A stretch of DNA of 64,000 nt from an uncultured delta proteobacterium (GTDB taxonomy: Bacteria; Myxococcota; Myxococcia; Myxococcales; 40CM-4-68-19): contig CAIWCD010000052.1 of NCBI GenBank assembly GCA_903911145.1, positions 1-64,000 on the forward strand. The letters are read 5' to 3'. Below the pieces are notes generated by a model that saw only the letters and a list, made by a program, of their open reading frames with translations, had not been told where the DNA came from and searched no databases. A program made the position numbers and the translations under genes. Numbering within the stretch: position 1 is the stretch's first letter; the number at the start of each line of letters is the position of its first letter. Shown one piece after another: positions 35,695 through 47,679 of the stretch.

Positions 35695-36648
35695 ATGCAC
35701 ACGTACTCAACATCGGAGCGGTTCGCCGCTCTCGACGAGCAGGATCGCGGGCGCCTCGATGCGCTCAGCAAGCTCGATCACTACGCAGCGGGCGAGCAGG
35801 TTGCGAACAGCGACCATCCTGCCGAGTGGCTGTTTCTCATTGTCCGCGGCAAGGTCGAACTGCGCGCGGGTCGCGACGCCGCGGAGGTCGTGCTCGCGAC
35901 GCTCGAGGCCGGGGACCTCTTTGGCGAACTCGAGAGCTTCGCGCAGATGCCGGGCCTGCGCTACGTCGCGCTCGAGGAGACGTTCGCCTGGGCCCTGGCG
36001 AAGAATCCGCTCAAGCAGGAACTGCGGCTGCACCGCCCCCTCGCGGCGGGAATGCTGTCCGTCTATGGCCGCTCGATCTCCGAGAAACTGCGCGCGGCCA
36101 GTGCGGCCCTCGCTGCGCTGCCTGCGGATGCGCACGGGCTGTCGCGCCCTCCGCCGCCTGCGCGCGCGGCCGGCGACGCGGAGGAGGTCATCGGGCCGCT
36201 CGGTCGCCCCGCACATCTGAGTGCCGAGGAGGCCGGCTGGCTTGCTCTGCTGGGCGCGCAGCGCACCGTTCGAGCAGGCGAGACCATCGTGCGAGAGGGA
36301 GACGCCGGCGCGAGCTTCTTCGTCGTGGCAACAGGACGCGCGCAAGTGCGCAAACGCGGCGTTCTCGACGTGGAAGGAGAGCGCACGCTTGCTGAATTGG
36401 CCGATGGAGATCTCTTCGGCTTCATGTCGTTCGTCGATCGCAAGCCCCGCTCCGCGTCGGTCATCGCTGTCGATGATTGCGTGCTCGCAGAGATCGACGC
36501 CGGAGCGCTCGAGACCGCGCTGCGCTTGAACTTTACGGTGAGCTTCCGATTCCTCGGCACGCTCTGCAACGTGCTCGGCCGCACATTCCGCGACACGGCA
36601 GAGCAGATCCTGCTTGCCGCCTCTCCCGTGCAGGATAAGAGACTCTGA
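35695..36648 (+). CDS. Protein with two cyclic-nucleotide-binding domains
   Basis: A 317-residue protein with two CRP-type beta-barrel domains, about 1-120 (AEWLFLIVRGKVELRAGRD, GDLFGELESF) and about 180-300 (TIVREGDAGASFFVVATGRA, DGDLFGFMSFVDRKPRSASV). The second keeps a phosphate-binding cassette-like RxxSASV pattern. No helix-turn-helix is seen, so it is not a classical CRP. ATG 35695 has GGTGGGG upstream. The last base of its stop codon is the first of the FadL-like porin start (TGATG), so the two are likely co-expressed. Confidence 0.8.
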   Translation: MHTYSTSERFAALDEQDRGRLDALSKLDHYAAGEQVANSDHPAEWLFLIVRGKVELRAGRDAAEVVLATLEAGDLFGELESFAQMPGLRYVALEETFAWALAKNPLKQELRLHRPLAAGMLSVYGRSISEKLRAASAALAALPADAHGLSRPPPPARAAGDAEEVIGPLGRPAHLSAEEAGWLALLGAQRTVRAGETIVREGDAGASFFVVATGRAQVRKRGVLDVEGERTLAELADGDLFGFMSFVDRKPRSASVIAVDDCVLAEIDAGALETALRLNFTVSFRFLGTLCNVLGRTFRDTAEQILLAASPVQDKRL

Positions 36649-38105
36649 TGATCGACGCCTCAAGACGAATTCACCGACCACGCGGCAGGTCGGCGTGCCG
36701 CTTCGTTCGCGCACTATGCATCGCCGCGGCGATGGCGGCAGGCGGCGCGCGGGCCTCGGGAGAGGGCATCCCCGATCTCGGCACTGAGGCGTTGGGCGAA
36801 GGCTCCGCGCAGATCGCCTCGCCGCAGAACATGACTGCGCCCTGGTACAACCCGGCAGGCCTCGCTGGCCTGAGCGGCCCGATCATCGAGATCGACCTGC
36901 GGCTCGCGTGGCATCGCGTCGGCTTTCAGCGTCTCCAGGCCGACGGCAGCAATCCGCACGTCTGGGACCCGGTCAACAACAATGCGAACATCACGCCGCT
37001 CTCAACCGTGCCGACCGGCGGCTTCGCCGTTCCCATTCGCGCGATGCCGTTTCCTTTCGTCGCGTCACTCGGCGGCTTTCCGTTCAATGGTGCCACTGGC
37101 TACCAGTATCCAGATCCGGCCGCGCTGCAGAAGAATGGCCTGACTCCGGCGCAGATCGAAATGGCGGCTCCGCAGCGCTACTCGAGCATCCTCTCCTCCT
37201 CGAAGATCTATGTCGCCGCGCTCGGCGTCGCGGCCCGGCCCATCTCGTGGCTCGATCTCGGTGCCAATCTGCAGTTCGTCAACGCCTCTTTCGGAACGCG
37301 CCAGTCGATCTCCTCGGGGATCACGGCTGGCGAGTACAGCGAGTTTGATGCCGCGCTGCAGATCGCCGGGCACGACTTCATGCGCTTGAGCGGAGCGTTC
37401 GGGCTGACTGCACGACTGCCTTGGGGCCTCGTCTTCGGCGCGTCGTACCAGCTGCCGTATCGTTTTCACGCCACCGGAACTCTCACTGCCGACATCCCGC
37501 CCACGCTGACGAGCATCGGCGCCAAGCTCTCCGGCAGCGATGCGACGCTCTCGTTCACGTTCCCCTGGTACTTCCGCGCCGGCTTGCGGCTCGTTCGCCG
37601 CGTCTTCGAGGTCGAGCTCGCGAGCACTGTCGATGGCTGGTCGACGCTCGACAACATCCGCATCGTGCCGCACAACATCTCGATCGACCTCGGCACCAAC
37701 AGCCACACCGCGCTGCCGACGTTGATACTTCCCCAGCAACTGCAGAACGCGGTCAGCGTGCGCCTCGGCGGAGAGCTGCACGTCGGCGAGTTGGCGCCCT
37801 CGGTGAAGGGACTCACTCTGCGTGCAGGCGCGCTCTACGAGACATCGGCAGTGCCGGAGCAACGGCAGACCCTGTCGCTTCCGAATTGGGCGCGGGGCTC
37901 ACTGAGCGTCGGCGGCAGCTATGACATCGGTCGATTCACACTGAGCGCAGCCTGGGCGCACTTCATCCAGCCCGAGCGCGACGTGCGCGACAGCACGGTC
38001 AAGCAGACCGTCGCGCTCCCCGGCGCAGCGCCGACCATCATCGGCAACGGGAACTACACCTCCGACCTTGATCTCTTTGGCTGCTCGGTGCTGATGCGGT
38101 TCTGA
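36648..38105 (+). CDS. FadL/OmpP1-type outer-membrane porin
   Basis: A 485-residue beta-barrel protein. After a Sec signal (ALCIAAAMAAGGARASGEGI, cleavage near RAS-GEG) comes the FadL-like N-terminal segment GTEALGEGSAQIASPQNMTA with PWYNPAGLAGL, then alternating beta strands to a C-terminal Phe (CSVLMRF). FadL-type porins take up hydrophobic compounds. ATG 36648 overlaps the previous stop (TGATG). Its neighbour, a cyclic-nucleotide-binding protein, may sense or control it. Substrate unknown. Confidence 0.85.
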   Translation: MIDASRRIHRPRGRSACRFVRALCIAAAMAAGGARASGEGIPDLGTEALGEGSAQIASPQNMTAPWYNPAGLAGLSGPIIEIDLRLAWHRVGFQRLQADGSNPHVWDPVNNNANITPLSTVPTGGFAVPIRAMPFPFVASLGGFPFNGATGYQYPDPAALQKNGLTPAQIEMAAPQRYSSILSSSKIYVAALGVAARPISWLDLGANLQFVNASFGTRQSISSGITAGEYSEFDAALQIAGHDFMRLSGAFGLTARLPWGLVFGASYQLPYRFHATGTLTADIPPTLTSIGAKLSGSDATLSFTFPWYFRAGLRLVRRVFEVELASTVDGWSTLDNIRIVPHNISIDLGTNSHTALPTLILPQQLQNAVSVRLGGELHVGELAPSVKGLTLRAGALYETSAVPEQRQTLSLPNWARGSLSVGGSYDIGRFTLSAAWAHFIQPERDVRDSTVKQTVALPGAAPTIIGNGNYTSDLDLFGCSVLMRF

Positions 38106-38231: not shown

Positions 38232-38609
38232 GTGACGAACGCAACGAAGAACAGCCTGAACTGGTTTGAGATCCCCGCGACAGACCTCGACCGCGCCGCC
38301 CGTTTCTACGAACAGACGCTCGGCCTGAAACTCAAGCGCGAGGATTTCGGTCCCGACAAGATCGCCGTCTTCCCGGCGGCCGGAGGGGGCGTCGCCGGAT
38401 CACTGGTCGCCGGCCCGAACCGCCGGCCATCGGCGGAGGGCTCCCTGATCTTCCTCGGCGCACCGGACGTGGCGGCCGCGCTCGCACGCGCCACCAGCGC
38501 GGGCGGCAAGAGCGTCTCCGGGATCGTCGACATCGGCGAGATGGGGAGCTTCGCCATCGTGCTCGACACCGAAGGCAATCGGGTCGGTCTGCATCAAGAG
38601 AAGCACTGA
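38232..38609 (+). CDS. VOC family protein (glyoxalase/bleomycin-resistance fold)
   Basis: A 125-residue protein of one VOC domain: LNWFEIPATDLDRAARFYEQ followed by TLGLKL, a GSLVAG-type beta strand and SFAIVLDTEGNRVGLHQEK at the end. Metal ligands are probably the N-terminal region acidic/His residues, but I cannot fix them. GTG 38232 follows GGAGCTCC. It is directly preceded by the operator at 38124 and followed by the regulator with the same site, so expression is probably controlled by that regulator. Confidence 0.85.
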   Translation: MTNATKNSLNWFEIPATDLDRAARFYEQTLGLKLKREDFGPDKIAVFPAAGGGVAGSLVAGPNRRPSAEGSLIFLGAPDVAAALARATSAGGKSVSGIVDIGEMGSFAIVLDTEGNRVGLHQEKH

Positions 38610-39326: not shown

Positions 39327-40931
39327 CTACAGCTTGCTGACGAGCGGGAGCGCGCTGAGGAACGACTTGATGTCCTCCTCGTTGAAGAAGATGCCGCCGC
39401 CGATGAAATAGTCCCTCCCGCTGATGATGCGGCTTGGTGACGTCGGATCTTCGATCGGCTTGTTGAACACGTCGTCCACGCCCGCCGTCAGCATCAGGTG
39501 TCCGAGGAACCGATAGTCCGCGTAGAGCTTCATGCGCGGATGGTCCTTGAGCGGATTGGCGAACTCGAAGACGTCGCTCGAGATGACGAGATCGTCGTTG
39601 AAGAGATGGAACTTCACACCGAAGCCACCGGAGCTCTCGATGATACCGAAGCGCGCAGAGATGAAACCGAACCGCTTGGCGAGATAGACGCTGTACTTGA
39701 GATCGCGCGTCGTCGTGATCTGCTGCAGGTTCGCCGGATAGTAGGGATTGTTGCTGGCGACGCCGAGCACGGTGTTCTGCACCTGCACGAGCTTGGTCAC
39801 GCCGCGCGGATCATCGACGATCTCGAAGCCGTACCACTTGTCGGGTCGCGGGATCAGCCGCAGCGAGAAGTAGTTCTTTGCCCACGGGTTGTAGGCGACG
39901 TTGCTCGCCTGCGGTGTCGACTGCGGCGTCAGGACTCCGGCGAAGATCTCGGTGCGCGTCGAGACTTCGATCTGCATCTGCGAGCCGCGCCCGAGAAGAT
40001 TCGAGATGCTGGTCGTCGCCTTGTCGAGATTCTTCGCGAGCGTGTCATCGTTGATCAGATGCCCGATCGTGCCTTCGCCGCGGTTGATCTTGTCGGTCAC
40101 CGACTCGACGTTCGCGAGCGTCTTGTCGAGCTTCTCCAGGTTGCTCTTGATGCTCTTGACCGTGTCGTTGACCTCGCCCTTCCCGGGCGTACCGACCATC
40201 CCCTGGATGCTCTTGAGGATGTCGCGGGCCTCGGCGGTGGCGTCGCGCGTGTTGGCGAGGATCTGAGCCACGTTCTGCTGCTGGCCCGAGGACATGTTGC
40301 GCAGGTCGCCGGAGAAATCGCGGAAGTTCTCGATGGTGTCGTCGAGCTTCTCGCCGCTGCTGTCGACGATCCTCTCGACCCGCTTGGTGATCGCCGCGAG
40401 TCCTTCGACAATCGACTTGAGGTTCTGCTGCCCTTCGTCGCTGCCGAGCACTTTGCGCAGCGAGCGGGTCACCTCCTGGATGTCGTCGGCGATGTGCCCC
40501 ATCGAGGTGAAGATCTCGTTCACTCCCGGTTGGCGGATGACGTTCTTGATCTCGTCGCCGTCGACGAGCAGCGGCTCATTCGGAGAGCCCGGCTTCACGT
40601 CGAGGAGGAAGTCTCCCAGAATGCTCTCGCTGCGCTTGGTGATCGCAGCATCGCGATGGAGCGCGAACTTCTTCTCAATACGGATGAAGATGCGCGCGCG
40701 CGCGGCGGCCTCGTCGAGTTCGACCTTCTCGACCGTGCCGATGACGATGCCCGCGACCTGCACCCGCGTGCGGATGCCGAGGCCGGTGGCGTCGTCGAAC
40801 ACGGCCGACACGACGTAACTGCCACCGTGGCTGAACGACTTGCCGCCGATCAGCGTCAGCCCGACGAAAAACGCGCCGATGGCCAGCAGCACGACTGCGC
40901 CGACCTTGAAGGAGTTGGAGATCTGGCTCAA
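39327..40931 (-). CDS. mlaD: MlaD/MCE-domain protein with C-terminal beta-rich domain
   Basis: A 534-residue lipid-transport protein. One N-terminal helix (about 9-30) anchors it, an MCE domain occupies about 38-118 (GLGIRTRVQVAGIVIGTVEK), a long helical, probably coiled-coil region runs about 125-310, and residues about 335-534 are beta-rich with repeated aromatic ends (LKYSVYLAKRFGFISARFGI; ITTTRDLKYSVYL) as in outer-membrane barrel domains. Start is TTG 40931; no ATG or GTG is available. Typical MlaD has only the first two parts (about 180 residues). With MlaE and MlaF next door it should move phospholipids between membranes. Confidence 0.88.
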   Translation of the reverse strand: MSQISNSFKVGAVVLLAIGAFFVGLTLIGGKSFSHGGSYVVSAVFDDATGLGIRTRVQVAGIVIGTVEKVELDEAAARARIFIRIEKKFALHRDAAITKRSESILGDFLLDVKPGSPNEPLLVDGDEIKNVIRQPGVNEIFTSMGHIADDIQEVTRSLRKVLGSDEGQQNLKSIVEGLAAITKRVERIVDSSGEKLDDTIENFRDFSGDLRNMSSGQQQNVAQILANTRDATAEARDILKSIQGMVGTPGKGEVNDTVKSIKSNLEKLDKTLANVESVTDKINRGEGTIGHLINDDTLAKNLDKATTSISNLLGRGSQMQIEVSTRTEIFAGVLTPQSTPQASNVAYNPWAKNYFSLRLIPRPDKWYGFEIVDDPRGVTKLVQVQNTVLGVASNNPYYPANLQQITTTRDLKYSVYLAKRFGFISARFGIIESSGGFGVKFHLFNDDLVISSDVFEFANPLKDHPRMKLYADYRFLGHLMLTAGVDDVFNKPIEDPTSPSRIISGRDYFIGGGIFFNEEDIKSFLSALPLVSKL

Positions 40932-41040
40932 GGCTTGGGCTCAGCTTCTCTCTGGACGCGCACGCGGTTGAGCCGCGCGAAACGTGATTGGGTAACAGCG
41001 AACGACGGTGCAGGCAAGATCGCAGCAGCGCGTGCGTGCC

Positions 41041-41853
41041 TCATTGGCGCGCAAACCAGGTGGCGAGGAACTCCTGGGTGTGCGGCTCCTTCGAGTTGCG
41101 AAGCTGCGCGGGAGTGCCCTGCTCGACAATGACGCCGTGGTGGAGCATCGCGATGTGATCGGCGATGTGAAACGCCGAGCCGATGTCGTGCGAGATCACG
41201 ACCGACGTGACGCCGAGCTTCTTGCGCGCACCGATGATCATCTGATCGACGCTCTCGGTGGTCAGCGGATCGAGGCCCGTGGTCGGCTCATCGTAGAGAA
41301 CGATCTTCGGATCGCGGATGATCGCGCGCGCAAGCCCCACGCGCTTGCGCATGCCGCCCGACAGCTCTGCAGGAAACTTCTGCTCGACATCGAAGAGGTC
41401 GACCACCGCGAGCTTCTCTTTCACCTTCGCGCCGATCTCGTCCTCGCTCATCTTCGTGTGCTCGCGCAGCGGGAAGGCGACGTTGTCGCCCACGGTCATC
41501 GAGTCGAACAGCGCGGCGTTCTGGAAGACCATCCCCATGCGCTGCCGGAAGATCGCGAGCTCCTGGCGCGACATCACCGAGACGTTTTCTCCGTCGACGA
41601 TGACCTCACCCTTGTCCGGCTTGAAGAGTCCCATGATGTGCTTCATCAGCACGGTCTTGCCGGAACCTGAGCCGCCGAGAACCACGGTTGTGGTGCCGGG
41701 CGCCATCTGCAGATTGATGCCCTTGAGCACGCCGAAACCGTTGAACGACTTCCAGAGATCGCGCACGTCGATCATCGGTCGGTCGCTTGCGATCGCGCTC
41801 GGTCGATCGCCTGCGGCCGCGCCCCGAGCGCCTTTGCGCGATGGCTCGATCAC
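41041..41853 (-). CDS. mlaF: Mla-type ABC transporter ATP-binding protein
   Basis: ATPase that powers MCE-linked lipid transport. Walker A GGSGSGKT at about 60-67, signature LSGGM, Walker B IVLYDEPTTGLDP and a switch His in VVISHD are all present, as is the VGDNVAFPLREH motif typical of MlaF. With GTG 41853 (GTGA overlap with mlaE) it has 270 residues; an internal ATG at 41775 would remove 26 non-conserved residues. MlaB and MlaC genes are absent here. Confidence 0.93.
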   Translation of the reverse strand: MIEPSRKGARGAAAGDRPSAIASDRPMIDVRDLWKSFNGFGVLKGINLQMAPGTTTVVLGGSGSGKTVLMKHIMGLFKPDKGEVIVDGENVSVMSRQELAIFRQRMGMVFQNAALFDSMTVGDNVAFPLREHTKMSEDEIGAKVKEKLAVVDLFDVEQKFPAELSGGMRKRVGLARAIIRDPKIVLYDEPTTGLDPLTTESVDQMIIGARKKLGVTSVVISHDIGSAFHIADHIAMLHHGVIVEQGTPAQLRNSKEPHTQEFLATWFARQ

Positions 41854-42695
41854 ATCCCGCCCATTCCGCCGCCGCTCGCGGTGTTCAACGAGATCGCCGT
41901 GTAGATGTAGTCGATCGCGAAGATGGCGATGAGTCCGCTGACCACCGCTTCCGTCGTCGCGATGCCGACTCCGCGCGCGCCGCCCTCGGCCTTGTAGCCG
42001 CGGAAGCATGCGATGCAGGTGACGAAGAAACCGATCACCATCGATTTGCCGAGACCATTGAGCAGGTCGTGCGGATAGACCATCGTCTGCATGCGATTGA
42101 GGAATGCAGCCGGAGATATGTCCTGCACATAGACGTCGATGCCGTACGCGCCGGCGATGGCGATGGCGTTGAAGAGCATCGTCAAGATCGGAGCGGCCAC
42201 GGCGGCCGCGAGCACGCGCGGCACGACCAGATAATTGAGCGGATCGACGGCCATCGTTTCGAGCGCATCGATCTGCTCGGTGACGCGCATGGTGCCGAGC
42301 TCCGTCGCGATCGCGGAGCCGACGCGGGCGACGACGACGATGCAGGTGAAGATCGGCGCCAACTCGCGGGCGAGCGCGATCTCGAGCGTTGCACCGACGA
42401 GGCTCTGCGCATTGAAGAGACCGAACGCAGAGGTGAGCTGCATCGCCATGACCATGCCGGTGAATAGGCCGGTCAGACCGACGACGAACAGCGAGCCGTA
42501 CGCCATGAACTCGAGCTGCGAAAGGAAGATCGAGAAGCGGTACGGCGGGCGGGGAATGGCCGCGAGAGACTGCGCGACGAAGATGAAGAGGTCGCCGATG
42601 GTGACGACGGGCTTCTCGATCCAGGTCAGCCAGCGCGGCTTCGCTTCCGGGGCCGCCGGTTCAATCGCTGCTGGGCTCGCTGCGTGCTCGGTCAT
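41850..42695 (-). CDS. mlaE: Mla-type ABC transporter permease
   Basis: A 281-residue inner-membrane permease of the MlaE/YrbE family with about five helices. The conserved core is MVMAMQLTSAFGLFNAQSLV, ELAPIFTCIVVVARVGSAIA and TELGTMRVTEQIDALETMAV. It forms the membrane part for the MlaF ATPase and docks MlaD. ATG 42695, and its stop overlaps the ATPase start. Its N-terminal ~30 residues are Pro/Ala-rich and not conserved. Confidence 0.93.
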   Translation of the reverse strand: MTEHAASPAAIEPAAPEAKPRWLTWIEKPVVTIGDLFIFVAQSLAAIPRPPYRFSIFLSQLEFMAYGSLFVVGLTGLFTGMVMAMQLTSAFGLFNAQSLVGATLEIALARELAPIFTCIVVVARVGSAIATELGTMRVTEQIDALETMAVDPLNYLVVPRVLAAAVAAPILTMLFNAIAIAGAYGIDVYVQDISPAAFLNRMQTMVYPHDLLNGLGKSMVIGFFVTCIACFRGYKAEGGARGVGIATTEAVVSGLIAIFAIDYIYTAISLNTASGGGMGGM

Positions 42696-45235: not shown

Positions 45236-46420
45236 TCAGAACGCCTTCGTCCACGAGAGGCCGGCAACGATATCGGGAGAGTTGCTGACGTAGACCCAGG
45301 TGATCGTGCTGCGCGGATTTGCGCCCGGCGTGTAGTCCTCGCTGAGCCAGAACGTGAAGCCTCGCCAGCGCGCGCCGAGGCTGACCTGGTTGTGCGGACG
45401 GAACGCGGCGTTGAGCGCGGACGAAATCAGTCCATTCGAGCCGCCGAACTCAACGCGCGTCCAGCCCGGCTCGAGCAGCGGCGTTGCGAGGCGATCTTCA
45501 AGGAGCAACTCGACGGCGCCCAACTTGAACGCGAGCGAGAGATCGCCCGTCGCATGCCAGCGCTTGGGCTGCAACTCGATGGGCTGCGAGAAGTGACCGA
45601 ACTGCGCAATCGTCGCCATCGCGTGGAGCGTAAAGCGTGACCCCAGAGTGAGCGTGCCAGCGAGGCCCAGCGATTCGTCCCAACCGCCAGACGAGCCAGC
45701 GCGCGCCACTGTCCCGGTTGGCGCCTTGACGTCGAAACGCAGCGCGAGTGCGCCGCGGCTGCCATCGACCAGGTCGAACTCAGTGCGCGCGACGAGATCT
45801 CCAAGTGCGAGCGTGGGCGCGTGGAGATCGAACACAGTCACTGCGTTCTGGTCACGAAGTTGAAGGCGAGTCTGGTTCGCCGGATAGAGATTCCGGTCGT
45901 AGCCGAATCCACCGATCAGATTGTGAAAGCCGGCGATCGCGCCGTCGCTCCACCCGCCCCAATGCTCGGTCGCGCGCCACTCGATCGCAGTGGAAACCCG
46001 CGCAGAGAGCGACTTCGCGCTTCCCGGCAGGTTTGTCGGCCCACCTTTGAAAAACACCGACCAGGGGAGGCGAACGCGAGCGGTGAGGGAATCGGCCTGC
46101 TCGTCGGTCCAGAGTTCGGCACCCTGCCCTTTGCGCACCATCTGCGTCGGGATGCTCCACGAGTTGGCTGCGCTCCAACGCAGATCGATTTCCATTCCCG
46201 TCCGCGGGCGCGCGTCGAGGAGGACCGGATCGAGGAAGAGTTCGCGCAACACACCCTGCGTGCGCACGCCGAGCGGAGCGGTCGCTACGAAATCCGCGTC
46301 GCTGTCGGCCTGCGCCGAGGAGGTGAGCGCGGCCAACAGGCTGAGGAACGCTCCCGCCGCACATCGGCTCACCGAATGCTTTGAGTGCCAATCATTGGAG
46401 TGCAAACGATTCGTCTTCAC
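45236..46420 (-). CDS. DUF3187 family outer-membrane protein
   Basis: A 394-residue protein with a Sec-like signal (about 1-37, ending SSAQA-DSDAD) and a beta-barrel-like body: alternating strands, LIGGFGYDRNLYPANQTRLQ and a terminal Phe. The family DUF3187 is found in outer membranes of gamma- and delta-proteobacteria. GTG 46420 is chosen; GTG 46372 would give a tighter signal peptide. The frame open upstream is not coding. A TTTGAGTGCCAA copy lies over its start region at 46380. Function unknown. Confidence 0.75.
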   Translation of the reverse strand: MKTNRLHSNDWHSKHSVSRCAAGAFLSLLAALTSSAQADSDADFVATAPLGVRTQGVLRELFLDPVLLDARPRTGMEIDLRWSAANSWSIPTQMVRKGQGAELWTDEQADSLTARVRLPWSVFFKGGPTNLPGSAKSLSARVSTAIEWRATEHWGGWSDGAIAGFHNLIGGFGYDRNLYPANQTRLQLRDQNAVTVFDLHAPTLALGDLVARTEFDLVDGSRGALALRFDVKAPTGTVARAGSSGGWDESLGLAGTLTLGSRFTLHAMATIAQFGHFSQPIELQPKRWHATGDLSLAFKLGAVELLLEDRLATPLLEPGWTRVEFGGSNGLISSALNAAFRPHNQVSLGARWRGFTFWLSEDYTPGANPRSTITWVYVSNSPDIVAGLSWTKAF

Positions 46421-46437
46421 GGCTCGGCGACGCGCGA

Positions 46438-47679
46438 TCAGGCCCGCACAAAGACGAAGAACTTGAGGTAGCGGCCCTCGGGAAACGAGAGCAACCAGGG
46501 ATGATCGGCGGGTTGGCGGCGCTCCTCGAGCAACTGCAGCTGGATGTCGCTCTTGCCAGCCGCCTCCTTCACGCAGGCAGTGAATTCCTCGGAGGAGACA
46601 CGCGCAGAGCAACTGGCGGTGGCGAGGATTCCTCCCTGCGGCAGGAGAGCAAGAGCGGCCCGATGCAATGAGGCGTAGCCATCGAGGGCCGCGGGAACGG
46701 CCTTCTGCGTCTTGGCGAACGCAGGCGGGTCGAGGACGATCAGATCGTAGCGTTCGTTCGCGCGCTTCTTCTCGCCGAGGAAATCGAGGACGTCGCTCTC
46801 GACGGTCTGGTGCGGCGTCGCAAATTTGTTGAGTGCAAAGCTGTCGCGCGCGAGAGCAAGAGCAGATCCGTCGCGATCGATCGACGTCACTTCGCGCGCG
46901 CCACCAGCAGCCGCTGCGAGTGAGAATCCGCCGGTGTACGAGAAGCAGTTGATCGCGCGTCGACCCTTCGCGTAGCGGCGCAGCGCGAGGCGATTTTCTC
47001 TCTGGTCGATGAAGAGTCCTGTCTTCTGTCCGGTGCGAACGTCGACGGCGATCGCGACGCCATGCTCGCGCACGACGATCGGATCGGGCGGCTCGGTTCC
47101 CCAGAGCAGTTGCCCTTTTTCCGGACGCCCGGACGATTCATTCGTCTCCTCGTCTTCATCGGCCGCGACGTCCTCGCCGGCCCCGCCCTCGTCGCGTCCA
47201 TACACACCGTCGAGCGCAACTTCGCCGCGCAGCGCATCGATGATCGAGCGGCGATGCGGAGCAAGCCCCGCGCTGTAGAGCTTGATCACTGCGTGCTTGC
47301 CGTAGAGGTCGATGATCACGCCGGGGAGAAGATCGCCCTCTCCGTGCACCAGACGCGCGCAGTCGGTGACCGCCGGGTCAGAAAAGGGCGAGTAGGCGCG
47401 ACGAAGCGCGACGGCCTTGGCGATGCGCTTGCGGAAGAAGAGCGTGTTGATCCCCTCAGCGGGATCGCGCGTCAGCACGCGCACCGCGATGGGAGAGAGG
47501 GGATCGTAGTAGCCGCGCACGACGAAGCGGCCCTTCTCGACGACATCGACGATCGCACCCGCAGGCAGTCCTGCCGGCGCCTTTTCAAGCGCGCGGCGAT
47601 AGACCCACGGATGGCCCGCGCGCAGATGGCGCGCGAGATCTTTCACCAGAGAGAGCTTGACGGTCGGCTCGGTCGCCAT
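46438..47679 (-). CDS. Class I SAM-dependent rRNA methyltransferase (RlmI-like)
   Basis: A 413-residue protein: PUA-type N-terminus (LVKDLARHLRAGHPWVYRRA), an insertion domain, then a Rossmann methyltransferase (NCFSYTGGFSLAAAAGGARE, VTSIDRDGSALALA, LIVLDPPAFAKTQ with a catalytic PP, ATASCSARVSSEEF with Cys). This fits the RlmI/RlmK group, which methylates a cytosine of 23S rRNA. A stretch of about 28 acidic residues near 150-180 (RDEGGAGEDVAADEDEETNE) is an unusual insertion. ATG 47679 is the family-like start. Confidence 0.88.
   Translation of the reverse strand: MATEPTVKLSLVKDLARHLRAGHPWVYRRALEKAPAGLPAGAIVDVVEKGRFVVRGYYDPLSPIAVRVLTRDPAEGINTLFFRKRIAKAVALRRAYSPFSDPAVTDCARLVHGEGDLLPGVIIDLYGKHAVIKLYSAGLAPHRRSIIDALRGEVALDGVYGRDEGGAGEDVAADEDEETNESSGRPEKGQLLWGTEPPDPIVVREHGVAIAVDVRTGQKTGLFIDQRENRLALRRYAKGRRAINCFSYTGGFSLAAAAGGAREVTSIDRDGSALALARDSFALNKFATPHQTVESDVLDFLGEKKRANERYDLIVLDPPAFAKTQKAVPAALDGYASLHRAALALLPQGGILATASCSARVSSEEFTACVKEAAGKSDIQLQLLEERRQPADHPWLLSFPEGRYLKFFVFVRA

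Follow-up and report, generated by a model that had tools for sequence, protein, structure and literature searches.

The MlaD protein encoded in the window (the whole stretch of 64,000 nucleotides that was analysed) is very probably a bridge spanning the envelope, with one end in the inner membrane and a barrel in the outer one, and part of a Veillonella-type MlaEFD system of three genes, as judged from its sequence, from structural models and by analogy. The one-protein bridge is well supported, both by the anatomy of the protein and by a precedent tested by fractionation, and it is not new: the same architecture was published for MlaD of Veillonella parvula by Grasekamp et al. in 2023 (PMC10665443), and the window protein is an ordinary member of this known kind. 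The present analysis extends the published bridge across a whole phylum, Myxococcota, in which Myxococcus offers genetically tractable organisms for testing it. It also qualifies the published tendency of barrel-ended MlaD to go together with the loss of MlaA and MlaC, as MlaA is lost everywhere in this phylum, whereas an MlaC-family protein is often kept, paired with a TolC-like protein. The interest lies mainly in this side observation on MlaC and its OEP-family neighbour.

The mlaEFD operon

The host genome (5.3 Mb, 99% complete) belongs to Myxococcota, its nearest named relatives being titled Deltaproteobacteria or Myxococcales, and the window is part of its contig 52. MlaE, MlaF and MlaD are encoded together on the reverse strand, as in Veillonella. 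The gene mlaE (41850-42695) encodes an MlaE-family lipid ABC permease of 281 aa (Pfam PF02405, E 1.3e-74; NCBIfam TIGR00056, above cut-off), and mlaF (41041-41775) encodes an ABC ATPase of 244 aa (PF00005, E 2.2e-33) whose best NCBIfam match is MlaF; both are standard, as originally predicted. The start of mlaF was moved from the listed ORF start at 42009 to 41775 (MIDVRDL), where the homologues align. The third gene, the long mlaD (39327-40931), is one intact ORF with a TTG start, encoding 534 aa with a PF02470 match and full-length homologues throughout the phylum. The order mlaE-mlaF-mlaD is conserved in loci L006 and L007 and in most of the family loci whose stored flank extends that far. 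An alanine racemase gene is located upstream of the operon, and a gene of a WYL-type regulator lies downstream on the opposite strand.

None of mlaA, mlaB and mlaC adjoins the operon. The earlier statement that they are not nearby therefore holds for the operon itself, although an MlaC-family gene is found on another contig. The possibility that MlaB had been overlooked was rejected, since the sole STAS_2 match in the window, at 38534, was below the cut-off; in the whole genome this search gave one strong match, located within the MlaE of a second MCE operon (contig 25).

Two other genes of the window may be mentioned here. A FadL/TodX-type outer-membrane transporter is encoded at 36648-38105 on the forward strand, about 1.2 kb from mlaD and opposite to it in direction, and a DUF3187 protein, possibly a further envelope protein, is encoded at 45236-46612 on the reverse strand.

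Domain structure of MlaD

With 534 aa, MlaD is about 2.9 times as long as the E. coli protein (183 aa), in line with the roughly threefold length noted before. The originally described succession of an inner-membrane helix, an MCE domain, a helical stretch and a beta-rich C-terminus was recovered from Pfam, sequence periodicity and the model taken together (all coordinates are on the reverse strand). The N-terminal inner-membrane helix (residues 7-27, positions 40851-40913) is helical in the model and hydrophobic in the alignment of 28 sequences. It is followed by the MCE domain (residues 38-115 approximately, 40587-40820), which is the part matched by PF02470, and by a periplasmic helical region of about 175 residues (137-311, 39999-40523), assigned from modelled helices and from a helical periodicity that dominates over residues 136-320 of the alignment. 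As one continuous helix this region would span, by a length estimate, up to about 260 Angstrom, which is enough for a typical periplasm; the AlphaFold model splits it into several helices. The C-terminal domain, of about 215 residues, contains the predicted barrel (residues 320-516, 39384-39974) and, in the model, a short helix past the last strand (residues 518-527, 39351-39380).

Homologues of MlaD align over its full length, with 63% identity in the same genus and about 40% in other families, and thus the fusion is not a sequencing or frame artefact. A tunnel of the Pqi/LetB type was also rejected, as MlaD carries only one MCE domain. When solved structures were searched by sequence, matches were confined to the MCE region and to coiled coils of a generic kind, and none was obtained for the C-terminal domain. 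No relative of MlaD was found in viral contigs.

Genomes of one family (f3; G064:C1:2239868-2240695 and others) gave partial MlaD matches, two per genome, in reading frames of some 600-640 aa, possibly reflecting an insertion that lengthens the bridge in that family.

The C-terminal domain

The C-terminal domain is predicted, from its sequence and from modelling, to be a beta-barrel of ten strands that sits in the outer membrane and has both of its ends on the periplasmic side; the assignment draws on strand pattern, loop and turn statistics, face conservation and fold matches. Structure prediction of this region, which had been proposed as a check, gave a ten-stranded barrel pattern, and a near-identical pattern appeared in the model of full-length MlaD. 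The AlphaFold input consisted of three sequences, the scan of genome contigs having given two relatives of the window MlaD, and the mean pLDDT was low (56 for the C-terminal domain and 44 for the full-length protein).

Connections between strands and the conservation of strand faces were analysed in 28 aligned family members. Three connections vary in length, namely b1-b2 (5-30 residues, SD 9.4), b3-b4 (12-25, SD 3.2) and b9-b10 (17-38, SD 4.8), while the turns of the opposite side are invariant in the 28 members (b2-b3, 5 residues; b4-b5, 2; b6-b7, 2; b8-b9, 3). On the variable side, b5-b6 (4 residues) and b7-b8 (10 residues) are likewise constant. In one homologue, L033, ten extra residues occur close to the b6-b7 turn; the alignment puts them within strand b6. 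As read from the sequences, this alternation corresponds to short turns on the periplasmic side and loops of variable length on the outside, and it would place both ends of the barrel in the periplasm, as is required for a bridge. The polar faces of the strands are more conserved than the hydrophobic ones (mean entropy 1.00 vs 1.44, p 0.008), and the alternation of hydrophobic and polar residues along the strands, which were chosen by the model, exceeds that of shuffled sequences (p 0.0002). Both features argue for a polar interior with the outer surface facing lipid, and against a soluble barrel that binds lipid.

The first 50 Foldseek matches were all outer-membrane barrels or designed transmembrane barrels. 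In the structural comparison outer-membrane barrels predominated; the tightest match was the designed ten-stranded TMB10 (Z 14.2, rmsd 2.5 over 135 residues), and OpcA (Z 13.6) and the Pla/OmpT family (Z 10-14) were also among them. Some soluble barrels, namely DUF3598, phycobiliprotein lyase and Ycf58, matched as well (Z 9-12.6). The latter matches, together with the low confidence of the models, would suit a soluble ten-stranded periplasmic barrel resembling lipocalins or fatty-acid-binding proteins, which might hold a lipid or dock on another outer-membrane protein and would leave MlaD short of the outer membrane. We consider this highly unlikely, given that indels are limited to alternate connections, with short invariant turns opposite and conserved polar faces, that no soluble barrel is among the leading Foldseek matches, and that the counterpart from V. 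parvula fractionates with the outer membrane (PMC10665443).

Comparison with known systems

As far as it can be likened by the published description, the window system shares with that of V. parvula the genes mlaE, mlaF and mlaD, an MlaD composed of a membrane helix, an MCE domain, a long helical region and a C-terminal ten-stranded barrel, and the absence of MlaA from the genome. The window MlaD is larger (534 vs 419 residues), its helical region is longer than the approximately 150 residues of V. parvula, and it ends in a short helix past the last strand, helical extensions being mentioned for some members of the group (PMC10665443). Unlike in V. parvula, neither tolC nor tamB adjoins the operon, and an MlaC-family protein is kept elsewhere in the genome, whereas both mlaA and mlaC are missing in V. 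parvula (PMC10665443). In the published survey, the loss of MlaC with barrel-ended MlaD is a tendency, neither strict nor defining (PMC10665443).

With the E. coli system (MlaFEDB-MlaC-MlaA/OmpC) the window operon has in common MlaE, MlaF and the MCE domain of MlaD. The short MlaD, separate MlaB, diffusing MlaC and outer-membrane MlaA of E. coli are not encoded beside it, and the system is not a six-component Mla of that type, because MlaA was not detected in the genome and MlaD is not short. The Mla-Pqi chimera of Brucella, Mpc, also has an MCE protein whose long helical part has been proposed to extend to the outer membrane, but it uses a separate PqiC-like outer-membrane lipoprotein and a STAS-fused MlaE in place of a built-in barrel (PMC12436622); the window operon encodes neither an MlaE with an N-terminal STAS domain nor a PqiC-like lipoprotein. 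PqiABC and LetAB (YebT) likewise bridge the periplasm with MCE proteins, but through stacked MCE rings, with no ABC ATPase and no built-in outer-membrane barrel. The literature search gave no paper dealing with Mla or MCE proteins of Myxococcus.

Distribution in Myxococcota and replacement of the shuttle

A search for the window MlaD across 193 Myxococcota genomes gave a match in 177, and most of the listed matches were full length, some being partial. MlaA was absent from the host genome and from all 193 genomes, while the controls (E. coli and Caulobacter) were positive. The host genome as a whole encodes no MlaA, one MlaC (on another contig), two MCE proteins and two MlaE. The MlaC family is present in 145/193 genomes. 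A survey of the fusion in genomes lacking mlaC, as had been suggested, gave an MlaD match in all 20 listed MlaC-negative genomes, which points to an independence of the long MlaD from MlaC across the phylum; 18 of these matches were clear and two were short or weak. Hence at least 18 genomes have a long MlaD and no detectable MlaC, and this protein probably does not require MlaC as a partner.

In the proposed mechanism, MlaE and MlaF would make up the lipid ABC transporter of the inner membrane. MlaD would presumably assemble as a hexamer, with its N-terminal helix as the inner-membrane anchor, and would carry the MCE ring, its helices might bundle across the periplasm around a lipid path, and the ten-stranded barrel on each subunit would anchor in the outer membrane. 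Glycerophospholipids are probably moved between the membranes, inward if the system is like known Mla systems, and this transport probably needs neither MlaA nor a diffusing MlaC.

The two parts of the original prediction fared differently. That MlaD could reach the outer membrane directly agrees with its domain anatomy and with the fractionation precedent of V. parvula. That it replaces the periplasmic shuttle is plausible from gene content, because MlaA is absent and the long MlaD occurs in MlaC-negative genomes, but the host genome itself keeps an MlaC-family protein. Homologues of mlaA or mlaC acting with this MlaD in the same genome had been named as evidence against the prediction; the MlaC-family gene is present and MlaA is not, and there is no sign that this MlaC acts with MlaD.

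The MlaC-TolC gene pair and a second MCE operon

Of the side observations, the most surprising is that a TolC-MlaC gene pair is conserved in a phylum that lacks MlaA. On contig 7 of the host genome (15266-19100; L008:5267-9101), genes of an inositol-phosphate synthase, a TolC/OEP-family protein and an MlaC/HpnM-family protein are located in a row, the last directly after the other two. The HpnM model gives the MlaC-family protein a higher score than the MlaC model itself, and the protein falls below the cut-offs of both. An OEP relative was within reach in 18 of the 21 mlaC neighbourhoods examined, immediately upstream of mlaC in 17. The neighbours of the pair include genes similar to phosphatidylinositol-phosphate synthase or a serine-palmitoyltransferase-like cluster, which suggest a link to inositol or sphingolipid metabolism. 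A paper on sphingolipid transport in Caulobacter mentions neither MlaC nor TolC.

In a distant genome (G012, contig 67; L058:4980-8467), mlaE, a short mlaD (183 aa), an OEP/TolC gene and mlaC are encoded in a row on the same strand, the genes from mlaD to mlaC overlap, and OEP occupies the place where MlaA might be expected. The same genome also encodes a long MlaD. Together with the MlaC-negative genomes and the gene neighbourhoods of the pair, this arrangement suggests that MlaC belongs to a route other than that of the long MlaD.

The four genes in a row, together with the wide occurrence of MlaC and its TolC/OEP neighbour in most neighbourhoods checked, could also be taken to mean that the long MlaD works with the periplasmic MlaC of contig 7 and that the TolC-family neighbour serves as the outer-membrane arm in place of MlaA. 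This is improbable: in the host genome MlaC lies on a separate contig from the long mlaD, the one MlaC linked to MlaE and MlaD stands beside a short MlaD, the listed MlaC-negative genomes keep their MlaD match, and the neighbours of the pair hint at inositol or sphingolipid metabolism. As against this joint pathway, one may tentatively imagine, although it is rather doubtful, two parallel MlaA-free lipid routes in Myxococcota, one through the barrel-ended MlaD bridge and another by an MlaC-type carrier with a TolC-family protein replacing MlaA, the latter route having inositol lipids or sphingolipids as possible substrates.

The second MCE operon of the host genome, on contig 25 (L009:6067-9621), encodes the STAS-fused MlaE, an ATPase, an MCE protein of 318 aa and a protein with a weak match, just below the family cut-off, to PqiC-type auxiliary lipoproteins. 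Its gene content corresponds to that of Brucella Mpc (PMC12436622).
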